Shown here: one piece after another, positions 45,755-52,483 of the stretch
How positions within the stretch are numbered: position 1 is the first letter of the stretch
Layout: the number at the start of each line of letters is the position of its first letter
Made by a program: the position numbers and the translations under genes
From: Rhodothermus profundi
GTDB lineage: Bacteria; Bacteroidota; Rhodothermia; Rhodothermales; Rhodothermaceae
NCBI RefSeq assembly: GCF_900142415.1
Contig: NZ_FRAU01000010.1
Span: 42,548 to 106,547 of the forward strand
DNA: 64,000 bases
Direction: 5' to 3'
Notes under the pieces: model-generated
The model's input: the letters and a program-made list of their open reading frames with translations, nothing else
Told to the model about the DNA's origin: nothing
Databases searched by the model: none

Positions 45755-48278
45755 ACATCATGCCAGAGCGCTACGCTGGGCCCTCCGCATGGCCTGGCGC
45801 GACAGCCGGGGAAGCCGACGACGCCTGGGACTCTTTCTGTCGGCCATGATCCTGGGGCTGGCAGCGCTGGTAGCCATCAACGGGGTGGGGGGAAATCTAC
45901 GACGCGCTGTAGACGAACAAGCGCGGCGGTTGCTGGGTGCTGATCTGCGTCTGGAACGTGCGGCGCCGTTCGATACGCTGGACGCGCTTCTCAATACAAT
46001 CGGTGGACGACAGGCCCGGGTGATCGCTTTTGCTTCCATGGTTTATTTCCCGCGCACAGGCCACGTGCGTCTGGCATCGATCCGAGCAGTCGAAGGATCC
46101 TGGCCGCTGTACGGACAGCTCCAGACCGATCCTCCAGAAGCAGCCGAGCAGTACCTGCGCGCAGATGGTGCCCTGGTTGAGCGTACGCTGATGGAGGCCT
46201 ACGGCGTGCGCATAGGTGACTCGGTGCGGGTGGGACGCCGAAGCTATCGCATTGTCGGGCGTCTGCTGGCAACACCCTCTGAGTCGGCACTTATGGCACT
46301 GGCTGCTCCGCGCGTGTATATCCCCCGAGCTGGAATGGATACCCTGTTGCTCGGCTTTGGCAGCCGCGCCACGTATGCGGTGTATTTCCGCTTCGACGAT
46401 AGGCGGGATGCTGAAGCGCTAGGCCGCCGGCTCCGCCAGCAACTGCAACCGTTGCAGGTCGATGTCGATACCCTGGAAGAAGTGCGGGCAGACTGGGATG
46501 AAGCGCTGGCAAACCTGTATCGCTTTCTGGGCCTGATCGGATTCATTGCGCTTGTCCTTGGAGGGATCGGCGTAGCCAGTGCGGTGCATGTGTACGTCCA
46601 GCAGCGCGTAGATGCGGTGGCGGTGCTACGCTGCCTGGGGGCTACGCCTGCCCATACCATGGCCGTCTATCTGTGGCAGGCCGGAATGATGGGGATAGGG
46701 GCTGGCGTGGCGGGAACGCTGCTGGGCCTGGGACTTCAGGCGCTTTTGCCTCGACTGCTGGCAGCGTTTCTACCCGTTGCGGTGCCGTTGCAGGTTGAAC
46801 CTGCTGCAATAGGCCTGGGGCTACTGAGTGGGCCGCTCATTACGCTGCTATTTGCCTTGCTGCCGTTACTCCCGGTACGTCGGGTTACGCCGCTGCGTGC
46901 GCTGCGCGCGTCGGTCGATCCCGTCCCGAACGGACGGGATCTCTGGCGCTGGGGCGCCTGGCTCCTGTTAACCGGCGGGCTCAGTGCCCTGGCCATGCTG
47001 CAGGCCCCGACGCCGGTGATAGGCGCCGGGTATGCCTTCGGGCTGATGCTTGTTCTGGGAACGCTGACGCTGCTGGCCCGGGGACTGATGCACCTGCTAC
47101 GCCGCGCGACCCCGAGCCGATGGCCGTACGTCTTTCGGCAAGGGCTGGCTAATCTCTACCGCCCTCATAACCAGACGCTCGTGTTGATGGTAGTGCTTGG
47201 ACTGGGGACATTTCTGGTAGTGCTGGTGCTGCTCCTGGAACGATCGCTTATAGCCCAGGTGCGGCAGGCCGATGGCGGCACGCGTCCGGATCTGGTCTTT
47301 TTTGACGTGCAGCCTGATCAGCGAGATAGCCTGATCGCGCTCATCGAAGCCAGCGGAGCACCTGTGCTTGAAGCGGTTCCGATTGTCACGATGCGGCTGG
47401 CGGCGGTTAACGGGCGTCGCATTGAAATGCTCCAGGCTGACACAACCGCTCGGTTAAACTGGGCCTTCCGGCGAGCGTACCGCTCGTCCTATCGAGACCA
47501 CCTGACCGATACCGAAACGCTTCTGGCCGGTACGTTTACGCCTGCGGTGCCACCTGGCACGGCGGTGCCGCCTGTCTCGCTCGAAGAGGAGATTGCCGCC
47601 GAGCTGGGTGTAACGCTGGGCGATACGCTGGTGTGGAACGTGCAGGGCATTGAGATTCCTACTGTGGTGGGAAGCATCCGACGCGTGGACTGGCGGCGGT
47701 TCCAGACGAATTTCTTTGTACTTTTTCCCCGGGGAGTGCTGGAAGAAGCGCCGCAGATGTTCGTGCTACTGGTGCGGGCTGGCGAAGCCTCGCCTCATAT
47801 TCAGCGGGCTGTTGTCGAGGCGTTTCCGAACGTTTCAGCCATTGATCTTCAGCTTATCCTGAACGTAGCTGATGAGATCTTCGGTCAGGTCGGGCTGGTG
47901 CTGCAGTTTATGGCGCTCTTTAGCGTACTGACTGGCGTGATTGTGTTGCTGGGAGCTATTGCCGTTACGCGTGTAGCCCGCGAAGAAGAGACGGTGCTGC
48001 TCAAGACGCTGGGTGCTTCGCGACACCAGGTGCTTCAGATCACGGCGGTAGAGTACGGATTGCTGGGAGGGTTGGCCGCAATCGTGGGACTGCTATTGGC
48101 TGTGGGAGCAGCCGAACTACTGGCCCGACAGGTATTCGAGGTGCCGCCCGTGTATCCTCTGGATGTGCTCGGCGCTGCGGTACTGAGCGCCCTTGTGCTG
48201 ACGCTAAGTATCGGGCTGCTAGGCAACCGTCAGGTCTATGGGCGTCCTCCGCTTGATATCCTGCGGGCAGCTGGATAG
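45747..48278 (+). CDS. YbbP-type ABC transporter permease
   Basis: An 843-residue FtsX-family permease with ten or so membrane helices in two FtsX-like halves (helices near 28-48, 260-290, 310-340, 355-380, then 425-500 and 715-825). Large extracytoplasmic loops lie at about 50-250 and 535-710. The ATG at 45747 was chosen because it gives the usual overlap with the ATPase gene; the frame upstream lies inside that gene. It forms one transporter with YbbA. Confidence 0.9.
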   Translation: MAEHHARALRWALRMAWRDSRGSRRRLGLFLSAMILGLAALVAINGVGGNLRRAVDEQARRLLGADLRLERAAPFDTLDALLNTIGGRQARVIAFASMVYFPRTGHVRLASIRAVEGSWPLYGQLQTDPPEAAEQYLRADGALVERTLMEAYGVRIGDSVRVGRRSYRIVGRLLATPSESALMALAAPRVYIPRAGMDTLLLGFGSRATYAVYFRFDDRRDAEALGRRLRQQLQPLQVDVDTLEEVRADWDEALANLYRFLGLIGFIALVLGGIGVASAVHVYVQQRVDAVAVLRCLGATPAHTMAVYLWQAGMMGIGAGVAGTLLGLGLQALLPRLLAAFLPVAVPLQVEPAAIGLGLLSGPLITLLFALLPLLPVRRVTPLRALRASVDPVPNGRDLWRWGAWLLLTGGLSALAMLQAPTPVIGAGYAFGLMLVLGTLTLLARGLMHLLRRATPSRWPYVFRQGLANLYRPHNQTLVLMVVLGLGTFLVVLVLLLERSLIAQVRQADGGTRPDLVFFDVQPDQRDSLIALIEASGAPVLEAVPIVTMRLAAVNGRRIEMLQADTTARLNWAFRRAYRSSYRDHLTDTETLLAGTFTPAVPPGTAVPPVSLEEEIAAELGVTLGDTLVWNVQGIEIPTVVGSIRRVDWRRFQTNFFVLFPRGVLEEAPQMFVLLVRAGEASPHIQRAVVEAFPNVSAIDLQLILNVADEIFGQVGLVLQFMALFSVLTGVIVLLGAIAVTRVAREEETVLLKTLGASRHQVLQITAVEYGLLGGLAAIVGLLLAVGAAELLARQVFEVPPVYPLDVLGAAVLSALVLTLSIGLLGNRQVYGRPPLDILRAAG

Positions 48279-48469
48279 ACCGTAGCATAAAGTCCTGCAG
48301 TGGTGGCCTCTAAAAGGACTTTCCAGAGCAGCCGGTTGTCCTGGAGCGGCTGCGGGCTCCTGCAGGCACGATGAGATATGGACAGGCTGCTGCCAGCATA
48401 AAGAAAAACGGTAAACCGAGCCGACATCCGCGGAAACAGATGCCTGTTCGCTGCTGACGGCGCGTTGCT
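48279..48469. other. Intergenic region with inverted repeats
   Basis: Between convergent gene ends. It holds an inverted repeat (AAAGTCCT at 48289-48296, AGGACTTT at 48315-48322) and a second, 7-bp stem (48328-48334 with 48347-48353). One or both may act as terminators of the ybbP-like gene; neither has a clean T tract. Confidence 0.4.
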
Positions 48470-49183
48470 CTACGAAGCCTTCGATAGGCCAGCAAAATAG
48501 GCTTCCAGCTCCTGCTGCGCGGAGGCGCCTTCGGTTACGTCGCGCACAATGCGGCCATCCTGCATGACGAGAATGCGTTGCGCCAGTCCGACCACTTCGT
48601 TCAGGTGATGGCTTGTAAACAGAATCGTCGCATGCCGTTGCTGCTGATGGAGCTGTAGGAGTCGGGTTAGTTGCTGGCAGGCGGTCGGGTCCAGATGCGC
48701 GAAGGGTTCATCCAGCACCAGCAGGCGCGGTTGTACCAGGAGGGCTGCTGCCAGCCCGACCCGTTGCCGGTTCCCGGCTGAAAGGTCGCGTACGTACGTG
48801 CGCGTTGCCAGCAACGCCGGGTCCAGAAAGGACGCCAGTGCTTCCAGCCGTGCCCGGTACGTATTTTCATCCAGCCCATACACCTGTCCCACCAACGTCA
48901 GGTATTCATCTGGCGTCAGAAAGGGAATCAGAAAACTATCGTCGAGGTAAGCGCTCGTTTGCTGTTTCCAGGCAGCGGTTTGCCGCACGTCCTGTCCGTC
49001 GAGCAATACCTGTCCTTCTGTGGGGGCTACCAGGTCCAGGATCAGGCGCAGCAGAGTTGTTTTACCAGCGCCGTTGCGTCCGACCACTCCAACCAGCTCG
49101 CCCGAGCGGATGGTCAGCTCGGGAATATCCACGGCCATGGTTTCGCCGTAGCGTTTTTTTAGCCGAATGAGTCGAATCTCCAT
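48470..49183 (-). CDS. ABC transporter ATPase of a two-gene cassette
   Basis: A 237-residue ATPase of the CcmA/drug-export type, with Walker [15 protein letters not shown], a signature region LSAGNRQRVGLAAALL (LSAGN rather than LSGGQ) and Walker B LLVLDEPFAHLD. The C-terminal helix is followed by ASAQQELEAYFAGL. It begins 4 bases after the membrane protein gene. The asymmetric cassette plus a small secreted peptide upstream suggests export or self-protection. Confidence 0.92.
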   Translation of the reverse strand: MEIRLIRLKKRYGETMAVDIPELTIRSGELVGVVGRNGAGKTTLLRLILDLVAPTEGQVLLDGQDVRQTAAWKQQTSAYLDDSFLIPFLTPDEYLTLVGQVYGLDENTYRARLEALASFLDPALLATRTYVRDLSAGNRQRVGLAAALLVQPRLLVLDEPFAHLDPTACQQLTRLLQLHQQQRHATILFTSHHLNEVVGLAQRILVMQDGRIVRDVTEGASAQQELEAYFAGLSKAS

Positions 49184-49187
49184 GACG

Positions 49188-50684
49188 TCAGGAGGGCCGC
49201 AGGTGTGCCAGCAGTTCGTGTTTGTGACGGATCAGTTGCCGTTCTAGCAGATCCAACCAGTGGGGATAGAGGAGCAGGCTGGCGCTTCCCAGCAATCCCA
49301 GTAGCAGCATGCCATAACGCCCGGTCATCATGCCAACCAGTGCCAGTGCCTGCAGCGTGAGCACCAGGCCCAGCAGGCGCAGGGGCTGTCGGTAAAGCAT
49401 TTGTTTGGAGGAAAAAAGCGATTGGGGATGGAGTTCGATCCGAACGGCATGCAGGGGCATCTGCCAGAGCAGCACCGGATGCACAAAACCCACCAGATAA
49501 AGGTAAAGTAGGGCCAGGCGTTGCATGTGGGAGGCTTCGATGCGGAGCGTTGGGAGCAACGAAAGTAACCCCCAGATGCTCAGAGCGGCGATAAAGGCGC
49601 ATAGCGCTAGAGTGGCCGTACCAAGCAGCGTGGCCCGCCCCAGCGCCCGATAGGGAAGGGGCCAGGTAAACAGGCCCTCGCCAAACGCGCTCTGCAGAGG
49701 TAGCATGTCGATTACGGCACGGAGCGTACCGGCCAGCAGGAAGGCCGTACCCATCAGAAGAAGCAGCGGGCTTTCTTGCTCAAGTCCCATGAAGAGTTGC
49801 CCTCCTCCAAGCATTCCGTAGAGCAATGGCAGGAAAATGAGCAACCGAGTAAAGCGATGCCGCCAGAGCAGACGAAACTGTAGCAGAGTCAGGTGCCAGG
49901 TAGCCGATAGGTTCCAGCGCGGCCTTCGGATGGCGGCAGCCGGCACCCGTCCCATGAAGGAATGGTCCACGTAGAGCGTGCGTCGGATAAGCACCAGGCC
50001 TGTTGCGTAAAGCGCAGCGTTCAGGCCCAGCAATACCCCCATACTGCCGGGCTGTCCGTAAAGGGGTGCTTCCAGCGCACGCGCGGCGAGCCACGCCAGC
50101 CCGCCCTGCTGGTTCAGCATGCCCAGTCCGACCAGGCTGCCCAGCCATACGCATACGTAGACTCCGGGCCATGTATAGCGGAGCAGGCGCAGGAGGTTGG
50201 CCGCCCATTGCGTGCCGGTGACCAGCAGCGTGGCGGTCAGGAGCCAGCTCAGCGCCGGAAGCAACGTGAAGCGGGGGACAATGCTGCCGAGCCAGATCCC
50301 CAGCAAGAAGAGGCCCAGCGCCCCGTTGGCTCCGTGCAGGAGGCTGAGCATCTGCAATGCATGGGCTATCCTGGTGCGTGAGACCGGCCACAGTAACCAT
50401 GGACGAACCGGTACGTCTGGTCCTGCTCCCCAGAGCGATTGCAGCAGCGGCCAGAGCAAAATCAGGCTGAGCGTTGCAGCATGGACCCCATGCAGGCGCT
50501 CTGCTGGCGGTACCCTCCAGAGCATCCACTCCAGCGAAAGCCCCCAGCCAAAGACTGCCACGCCAAGCAGTCCATAGAGCGCTCGGAGCACCCAGCGTTC
50601 GCCCTCTCCCTGGCCGGTTGCCCGGTGCCGCGAAACATACAGGCGCCAGAACTGTCCCGGTAAATGGAGTGGTGCGCCGTCCAT
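49188..50684 (-). CDS. Polytopic ABC permease (DUF5687-like)
   Basis: A 498-residue membrane protein with about twelve predicted helices and few charged residues outside loops. The pattern resembles the DUF5687 membrane proteins paired with an ATPase in Bacteroidota. The ATG at 50684 is one base after the stop codon of the small peptide gene, so translation is probably coupled; a TTG at 50702 overlaps it. Together with the ATPase it should form one exporter. The substrate is unknown. Confidence 0.82.
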   Translation of the reverse strand: MDGAPLHLPGQFWRLYVSRHRATGQGEGERWVLRALYGLLGVAVFGWGLSLEWMLWRVPPAERLHGVHAATLSLILLWPLLQSLWGAGPDVPVRPWLLWPVSRTRIAHALQMLSLLHGANGALGLFLLGIWLGSIVPRFTLLPALSWLLTATLLVTGTQWAANLLRLLRYTWPGVYVCVWLGSLVGLGMLNQQGGLAWLAARALEAPLYGQPGSMGVLLGLNAALYATGLVLIRRTLYVDHSFMGRVPAAAIRRPRWNLSATWHLTLLQFRLLWRHRFTRLLIFLPLLYGMLGGGQLFMGLEQESPLLLLMGTAFLLAGTLRAVIDMLPLQSAFGEGLFTWPLPYRALGRATLLGTATLALCAFIAALSIWGLLSLLPTLRIEASHMQRLALLYLYLVGFVHPVLLWQMPLHAVRIELHPQSLFSSKQMLYRQPLRLLGLVLTLQALALVGMMTGRYGMLLLGLLGSASLLLYPHWLDLLERQLIRHKHELLAHLRPS

Positions 50685-50685
50685 T

Positions 50686-50985
50686 TCAGTTTGTGCAGCC
50701 AATCGCCGTTCCTATGGAGATGCCGGTAGCCGGTATGCCAAAGATAAGAGAAGCCGCCGTCCATCCTAACCACGCTGCAGTCCCTACCGGTGTTGCCAGT
50801 GCCCCAAGGGCAAGGGTTCCCAGAACGGCTCCTATGCCACTGGCTGCCCGGCAGGAGCTGGCCCCACTGCCTCCGCCGCCATCTTCGCCTTCCCGTTCAG
50901 GTCGGGCCCACAAAGCATGGACCGTGGCCGCCTGGATAAGCAGCAACAGACCGGTCGTGTACAGCTTCGACAGGATCCGCTCCAT
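50686..50985 (-). CDS. Small secreted Gly/Ala-rich peptide, bacteriocin-like
   Basis: A 99-residue product with a signal-like leader (about 1-27, LYTTGLLLLIQAATVHALWA), an acidic-Gly linker (GEDGGGGSG), and a hydrophobic C-terminal part between two cysteines: C at about 44 (ASSCRAASG) and C at 97 (AIGCTN). The C-terminal part has GxxxG motifs (GAVLG, GISIG, GTAIG) like pore-forming class II bacteriocins. An ATG at 51066 would add 27 basic residues; no good ribosome-binding site decides. It is directly followed by permease and ATPase genes. A toxin function is a hypothesis; it could be a small membrane or lipoprotein-like factor. Confidence 0.6.
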   Translation of the reverse strand: MERILSKLYTTGLLLLIQAATVHALWARPEREGEDGGGGSGASSCRAASGIGAVLGTLALGALATPVGTAAWLGWTAASLIFGIPATGISIGTAIGCTN

Positions 50986-51361
50986 GGCTGTACGATTTTG
51001 ACTGACGAGTTCACGTCGGATAAGCCAGCCGGGTCGCCGTTCACGCCGGCCTTCGCGACCCGACATGCACGTAGCTAAGTAACACACACCCACCTTGTCA
51101 AGCCCCCGGGTCGGCTCTCTATCCAGAGGACCATGGGGGCAAAAACGCTTTTTGGGTTGAGCGGAATGGATGAAGCCGCGTTCGGTGCCGCGGAAAGGTG
51201 CGGGGACAGGGCGGCCTTGATAGTGCAATGCCGTCCGAGCTATGCCGAGCTCGACCCCGCACGCTTCCAATCATAGGGAGGCAGTCCCGCCTTTTTAAAG
51301 AATCGAAGCCCGAGCAGACAGATGGCTGCGGCCAGGTTTGGATAACTCTGGAAGCTATTAC

Positions 51362-51390
51362 TTGACAGATTTTCATAGATGAGATAAATT
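51362..51390 (+). promoter_or_regulatory. Sigma-70-type promoter of the sugar ABC operon
   Basis: TTGACA (51362-51367), 17 bases, then TAAATT (51385-51390). The -35 is perfect and the -10 matches at four of six positions. It lies 34 bases before the LacI start codon, in the right place to transcribe the whole operon. Confidence 0.6.
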
Positions 51391-51396
51391 TTCATT

Positions 51397-51405
51397 AAAC
51401 CGTTT
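51397..51405. promoter_or_regulatory. Candidate LacI-type operator
   Basis: AAACCGTTT: arms AAAC and GTTT around a central C, between the -10 box and the start codon of the regulator. LacI-family operators are CG-centred palindromes of this sort, so it may be the autoregulatory site. Short length keeps this tentative. Confidence 0.35.
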
Positions 51406-51424
51406 CGATCTTCAGAGAGACCCC

Positions 51425-52483
51425 ATGAGCACTTCACGAAGCACCATTCGGGATGTCGCCCGAGCTGCCGGAGTGTCGATTTCAACCGTTTCGTTGGTCC
51501 TCAATAATAAAGGCCATGTGAGCGAGGCAACGCGCCGGCGCGTACTGAAAGCTGCCAGAGAGCTGGGCTACGTTCCCTCCCGAGCTGCACGCGACCTGTC
51601 GTTGAAACGGACTGGCAACATCGGGTTTGTGCTGCGCGACGATCATTTTACCCGAAGTGAACCGTTTTACACCTACATTTTCCTGGGAACGGAATTCGAA
51701 GCGCGGCTGCACAATCTGTACGTCCTGCTAACCACCATCCCGCGAGACTATCAACCTCGGGTGCATACGCCGCGTTTTCTGCGGGAGCGTAACGTGGATG
51801 GCCTTCTGGTGGCCGGCAAGGTGAGCGACACCTTTCTACAGGAGGTGCGAGCAATGAAGTTGCCGACCGTGCTGATCGATTATGAAGCCGAGGGATTTCC
51901 CGCTGTGGTTATCGACAATCAGGGAGGGGCTCGCGTGGCCGTAGAGCACCTGTTGCAGCAGGGTCACCGGCGCATTGCGTTTGTGGGGGCAGACCTGCAG
52001 CATCCAAGCATTGCCAACCGGCTGGAAGGCTACCGGGGAGCACTGGTGCGGACCGGACAGACTCCGGATCCTGCGCTGGTGCTGGTAGATGAGGAGGCGG
52101 AGCCCACGCGGGCAACTGGCCAGCGCCTGGGACAGCGACTGTTGGAGTTGAAGACACGTCCCACAGCTGCCTTTTGCGCCAATGATGCGCTGGCGCTGGG
52201 CGTGATGGAGACGCTGCTGCAGGCAGGCCTTCGGATACCCGAGGACGTGGCGCTGGTGGGGTTCGACGACGTGCAGGGGGCTACCCAGGCACCGGTGCCC
52301 CTCACCAGCGTGCGGGTTTTCAAAGAGCAACTGGGCGAGCTGGCCATGCGCCACCTGGTCGAACGCATGACTCCAGACGAAACGCGCCGCCCATATGCCC
52401 GGGGGCAGCATATCATTGTGGTGCCCTGCGAACTGGTGGTGCGCGCTTCGTCCGCGCACCGAAAAGCCTACCCTCCAGCCTGA
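51425..52483 (+). CDS. LacI-family transcriptional regulator
   Basis: A 352-residue repressor. The N-terminal helix-turn-helix and hinge are clear: STIRDVARAAGVSISTVSLVLNNKGHVSEATRRRVLKAA. The periplasmic-binding-like effector domain includes GLLVAGKV, DYEAEGFPAVVIDNQGGARVAVEHLLQQG and AALGVMETL-like stretches ending in PEDVALVGFDDV. It is first in the sugar operon, 13 bases before the binding-protein gene, so it likely senses the transported sugar or its phosphate. Confidence 0.95.
   Translation: MSTSRSTIRDVARAAGVSISTVSLVLNNKGHVSEATRRRVLKAARELGYVPSRAARDLSLKRTGNIGFVLRDDHFTRSEPFYTYIFLGTEFEARLHNLYVLLTTIPRDYQPRVHTPRFLRERNVDGLLVAGKVSDTFLQEVRAMKLPTVLIDYEAEGFPAVVIDNQGGARVAVEHLLQQGHRRIAFVGADLQHPSIANRLEGYRGALVRTGQTPDPALVLVDEEAEPTRATGQRLGQRLLELKTRPTAAFCANDALALGVMETLLQAGLRIPEDVALVGFDDVQGATQAPVPLTSVRVFKEQLGELAMRHLVERMTPDETRRPYARGQHIIVVPCELVVRASSAHRKAYPPA

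Follow-up and report, generated by a model that had tools for sequence, protein, structure and literature searches.

Introduction

In the lactococcin 972 operon (lcn972-orf2-orf3) the structural gene is followed by two putative ATP-binding cassette (ABC) transporter genes that have been implicated in immunity (PMC4055356). Lcn972 has no cysteines and binds lipid II, and for circular or leaderless bacteriocins of the AS-48 type an ABC pump (as-48EFGH) has been proposed to expel the hydrophobic helical peptide from the membrane of the producer (PMC8538875). The Cdz bacteriocins of Gram-negative Caulobacter (CdzC/CdzD) are small hydrophobic secreted proteins with a GxxxG zipper; they aggregate on the cell surface, kill on contact, and have a patchy, apparently horizontally moved distribution (PMC5380434). 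Bacteroidota also produce small peptide toxins that are secreted, the bacteroidetocins (PMC6671954). The present study describes a three-gene cassette in Rhodothermus profundi (contig NZ_FRAU01000010.1, positions 42,548 to 106,547; this whole analysed stretch of 64,000 nucleotides is called the window), in which the gene for a small, predicted secreted peptide precedes the genes for a DUF5687 permease and an ABC ATPase. Our tentative reading is that the cassette could encode a secreted bacteriocin-like peptide together with a self-protection pump, both the antagonism and the role of the pump being inferred from sequence.

Results

Conservation and coupling of the cassette

The 99-residue peptide is encoded on the reverse strand at 50686..50985 (ATG at 50985, stop at 50686). 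A single base (50685) separates it from the gene of a 498-residue polytopic membrane protein on the same strand (49188..50684; ATG at 50684, stop at 49188), and 4 bases further on, again on the reverse strand, begins a full-length gene for an ABC ATPase of 237 residues (48470..49183; ATG at 49183, stop at 48470; ABC_tran E 3.1e-29). The coordinates, the peptide length, the one-base gap and the two cysteines (here C45 and C97) given in the original prediction were exactly reproduced, and the permease and ATPase that it had placed downstream of the peptide matched DUF5687 (PF18940) and ABC_tran.

The comparison set consisted of seven Rhodothermus species with one genome per species, the source genome of the window being 3.14 Mb in size and 99.7% complete. 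Intact orthologues of the peptide were found in two other species, G003 (~74% identity) and G006 (~53% identity), and in all three genomes peptide, permease and ATPase stand in the same order. The junction between peptide and permease reads TGA-N-ATG in the window and in G003 (TGA-G-ATG in the latter) and is an overlapping ATGA of 4 base pairs (bp) in G006. Overlapping or 1-bp junctions in three genomes thus indicate translational coupling. Comparison of 97 codons with G003 gave a nonsynonymous rate (dN) of 0.164 and a synonymous rate (dS) of 1.26, with dN/dS of ~0.13; as judged from these alignments, the peptide is a real gene under purifying selection.

The distribution of the peptide is narrow. 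A profile built from the three peptides and searched against 244 class genomes found only Rhodothermus and one marginal match with stops, and weak matches in the order mostly look like short chance matches. In a scan of genome contigs the peptide matched only the G006 contig and the permease matched no relative; a plasmid search with the peptide gave no match. G001 carries a degraded peptide-like stretch with stops, shifts and weak similarity, which is a possible relic only.

The three cassettes occupy three unrelated genomic sites. The window cassette belongs to an accessory segment (48279..51424, no strand assigned) between an FtsX-type permease gene ending at 48278 and a LacI-type regulator gene starting at 51425. 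This site is an empty gap of ~390 bp in G005, holds methyltransferase-like and acetyltransferase-like open reading frames in G001 and carries other open reading frames in G003. The G003 cassette lies on a separate contig (C42) beside unrelated genes, and that of G006 among beta-propeller genes, directly between modules of a peptide gene and a propeller gene. The FtsX-LacI site of G003 (G003:C18, L071 ~2085-2320) also contains a broken gene similar to a 186-residue lipoprotein with a Cys-rich hydrophobic tail, which in G006:C182 (L094 1611-2171) follows the upstream element described below; this broken copy suggests that the site is an insertion hot spot.

Features of the peptide

Signal peptide and topology were assigned by eye. 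The N-terminus carries a Sec-type hydrophobic segment at about residues 10-24, followed by a hydrophilic spacer rich in Gly and charged residues (about residues 25-44). The description of the peptide as secreted is thus upheld as far as this signal-like segment goes, and the peptide is predicted to be exported by the Sec route. The core from Cys45 to Cys97 is a hydrophobic glycine zipper of 53 residues, one of them charged; Gly and Ala make up 42% of it, and it contains three GxxxG motifs, which are the several motifs that had been noticed earlier. Both orthologues retain the signal segment, the Cys-Cys core and the GxxxG or small-xxx-small spacing, with two to three GxxxG motifs; across the window peptide and its orthologues the cores have 0-1 charged residues and 39-42% Gly+Ala. 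The core is probably the functional part of the peptide, because invariant columns concentrate there and the spacer differs between the peptides in both length and content. The two cysteines may form a disulfide, and the peptide may insert into membranes.

The peptide had no family match in Pfam, NCBIfam, PADLOC or the PDB, in agreement with the earlier remark that it belongs to no clearly described family; PDB profile searches with the peptide and with the permease, and an Rfam search at the window locus, also gave no match. A match to garvicin KS (E 0.14 over 9 residues) was discarded as noise. The first core cysteine was considered as a lipoprotein cysteine, and this was rejected by eye, as it is preceded by hydrophilic residues and lies too far from the hydrophobic segment.

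The DUF5687 permease and its partner ATPase

The permease matched DUF5687 with E 2.3e-14 and 54 bits (cut-off 33), residues 47-493 aligning to 35-479 of the 484 model positions. It thus scores above the gathering cut-off across most of the model. It carries DUF5687 only, with no C39 peptidase and no ABC_membrane domain; in PADLOC the permease had no match and the ATPase matched generically. The family occurs in 22 of 118 genomes of the phylum, and an adjacent ABC ATPase, typical of DUF5687 and present here 4 bp downstream, was seen at nearly all phylum loci inspected. At twenty such loci the upstream genes were unrelated and included no small secreted peptide of comparable kind. Since the pair normally occurs without a peptide, dedicated bacteriocin export is not its general function. 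No mention of DUF5687 or of NVEALA was found in the open-access literature searched, which for DUF5687 is no proof that it was never studied.

The Rhodothermus permeases form a very divergent clade (53-63 bits against 189-653 for other members), in which three of the four copies have a peptide gene. In the tree they group with G012 (support 100/100), the closest outgroup permease (49% identity), which has no peptide. The fourth copy, in the window's own genome (G000:C1), also lacks a peptide; its ATPase is reduced to residues 11-126 and has lost the half with the signature and Walker-B motifs, and its permease nests inside the peptide-associated clade with moderate support (85/86). This single case would fit loss of the pump after loss of the peptide. 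Since the trio is found at three sites, is coupled, and has a decayed ATPase in the peptide-less copy, the sequences support peptide, permease and ATPase as a functional unit. The conserved trio asked of orthologous loci is kept in three Rhodothermus species; ABC cassettes without the peptide gene, which the original prediction had named as a refuting result, are what is seen outside the genus.

The peptide-less copy lies in an island (G000:C1:705000-724000, L039) that also holds five genes for 6-bladed beta-propellers (DUF5128/NHL) and several small secreted Cys peptides, and it adjoins a cytochrome c biogenesis (CcmF-like) gene. In other Rhodothermales, clustered DUF5687-like genes were seen near lipoprotein and peptidase-like genes (G029:C1:320684-334195 and G038:C1:478351-484559).

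A shared upstream element

The peptide start is preceded, at a distance of ~90 bp, by a promoter-like element, TTGACAAGGTGGGTGTGTGTTACTTAG, of the form TTGACA-(TG)n-TTANTTAG with a 14-bp spacer (51075..51101, reverse strand). It is the sole match to TTGACA-N(4-30)-TGTGTTANTTAG in the source genome, and the backwards control pattern had zero matches in the seven genomes. Between it and the peptide start, inspection of the sequence revealed a leader inverted repeat, GTCGGGTCG...CGACCCGGC (51026..51062, reverse strand). The TTGACA-(TG)n-TTAATTAG element also precedes the G003 and G006 peptides, where the similarity to other copies is longer and includes the leader hairpin; in the window just the 27-bp core and the hairpin remain. 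The architecture compiled from loci L083-L120 and the window copy is TTGACA-(TG)n-TTAATTAG, a hairpin, ATCGGGTGCGAA and GGAGGTG.

Five of the seven species carry the element, in about 25 copies altogether, with fourteen matches to the pattern or 24 to a 151-bp consensus. Fourteen of these 24 precede genes for secreted peptides of 41-87 residues, mostly with several cysteines and of at least four unrelated sequence types, each followed by a gene for a secreted 6-bladed beta-propeller (DUF5128-like). The others stand before lipoproteins (2/24) or the cassette of G003 and G006 (2/24), are disrupted (3/24) or run off a contig end (3/24). The NVEALA (PF14055) hidden Markov model, considered only for the neighbouring Cys-rich peptides, matched nothing in those Rhodothermus genomes that the search covered. 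The distance from TTGACA to TTAATTAG ranges from 10 to 28 bp and is always even, and it is mainly the (TG)n tract that changes. Such even changes in length would be the pattern expected of a slippage-prone promoter repeat, with TTAATTAG as a putative -10 box.

In leaders of L083-L096 (for example L087, after 1501) an CGCACCCC arm could pair with a 5' GGGGTGCG or with a downstream CGGGTGCG, and mutually exclusive RNA hairpins are possible there. At G000:C9:111934-112029 (L109) the element is followed by a fused or deleted remnant of a peptide and propeller, a decayed module.

Discussion

Lcn972 is secreted by a Sec-type route. The cassette shares with its operon the order of secreted peptide, membrane protein and ABC ATPase; it differs in that its peptide is non-homologous and has a Cys pair, its permease is a DUF5687 protein and its host is a Gram-negative thermophile. 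The NCBIfam models of lactococcin 972 matched neither the peptide, its orthologues nor the permease. With Cdz the peptide has in common its small size, hydrophobicity and GxxxG zipper, and a neutral core similar in kind, but the cassette has a Sec-type signal, a conserved Cys pair and an ABC-2-like pair, and type I secretion system genes were seen neither in the inspected neighbourhood of the window cassette nor beside those of G003 and G006. As for AS-48, the pump is proposed here to rid the producer membrane of a hydrophobic helical peptide; however, no circularisation genes were noticed at the cassette and the peptide sequence is unrelated. Like bacteroidetocins the peptide is small, predicted to be secreted and from a Bacteroidota host, but it lacks a YGNGV-like motif and matches no family. 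With the DUF5687 pairs of Bacteroidota it shares the adjacent ATPase, whereas the peptide gene is found only with Rhodothermus copies (3/4). We do not assign the peptide to the class II bacteriocins, to the lactococcin 972 family or to Cdz, since defining features of each were looked for and were absent.

In the reading that we tentatively favour, the peptide would be synthesised with a Sec signal, exported to the periplasm and cleaved near residue 24, after which its cysteine pair could form a disulfide that encloses a neutral, membrane-seeking glycine-zipper helical core of ~53 residues. The exported peptide may then affect membranes beyond the producing cell; its most plausible role would be that of a bacteriocin with a narrow range, directed at related cells. 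The coupled permease and ATPase would form an ABC-2-like pump that clears the peptide from the inner membrane of the producer and gives immunity, perhaps also aiding release. Since the signal is of the Sec type the ABC pair is not needed for export, and self-protection is the simpler reading of a pump whose genes are coupled to that of a secreted, membrane-seeking peptide, as proposed for lactococcin 972 (PMC4055356) and AS-48 (PMC8538875).

Several observations weigh against a bacteriocin-like peptide with a self-protection pump. Many bacteriocins are cationic, unlike the neutral core found here, and bacteriocin models gave nothing above cut-off with the peptide. Neither a dedicated immunity protein nor a known exporter is adjacent to the cassette. 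Flavobacteria and most Rhodothermales have the DUF5687 and ATPase pair without a peptide, and with such a wide distribution the basic job of the pair must be something else. The upstream element is also found with genes for Cys-rich peptides and beta-propellers, which have no sign of being toxins. The predicted structures were of low confidence, with a mean predicted local distance difference test (pLDDT) score of 55.6 for the peptide and 39.2 for the permease.

The last point on the element leads to a different explanation, in which Rhodothermus has a group of secreted peptides under a common promoter and leader, this peptide included, with an envelope, surface or signalling role instead of killing; the ABC pair would place, recycle or clear the peptide of the cassette. 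The spread of the element and hairpin leader, mostly before secreted Cys peptides and propellers, its presence before all three cassettes and the position of the G006 cassette between such modules all speak for it. But no evident sequence similarity links the other peptides to that of the cassette, they have no ABC pair, the window retains only a reduced copy, and a common element would mean shared expression or mobility, not shared function; we regard this explanation as somewhat unlikely. Rather doubtful is a related proposal that the cassette belongs to a phase-variable arsenal of secreted peptides, in which the (TG)n length of a mobile promoter and leader element switches copies on or off, each copy driving a small secreted Cys peptide with a beta-propeller or, here, the glycine-zipper peptide with its ABC self-protection pump.

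The tight coupling, consistent with coordinated synthesis, the keeping of the trio at three sites and the decay of the ATPase where the peptide is absent would equally suit a small accessory subunit or regulator of the transporter, membrane-anchored and facing the periplasm, gained in the Rhodothermus lineage. The permease family does without a peptide elsewhere, including in the closest outgroup G012, transmembrane subunits do not usually have a signal segment together with a hydrophilic spacer that varies in length, and the upstream element otherwise serves secreted peptides, so this appears quite unlikely. Adjacency and coupling could also point to a dedicated peptide exporter in the style of class II bacteriocins, the analogy drawn in the original prediction. 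That analogy did not hold: the Sec-type signal makes an ABC exporter unnecessary, the GGGG of the window spacer is missing from G006, whose peptide has no GG before the core, so that there is no conserved double-glycine leader, the permease has neither a C39 peptidase nor an ABC_membrane exporter domain, and DUF5687 at large has no peptide partners. Dedicated export is therefore very improbable, and the Sec-type layout fits better with lactococcin 972-like operons than with class II export.

Among thermophilic Bacteroidota, little is known of secreted peptides with antagonistic action. If the peptide is indeed a bacteriocin with its own self-protection pump, a heat-stable, disulfide-closed glycine-zipper peptide with such a pump would be new for this group. 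Through the upstream element the cassette is linked to a set of genes for secreted Cys-rich peptides and beta-propellers that spans the genus and is apparently undescribed; the set has a repeat tract of a type known from phase variation. The bacteriocin reading, if true, would provide the first testable role for one branch of the widespread, uncharacterised DUF5687 transporters.
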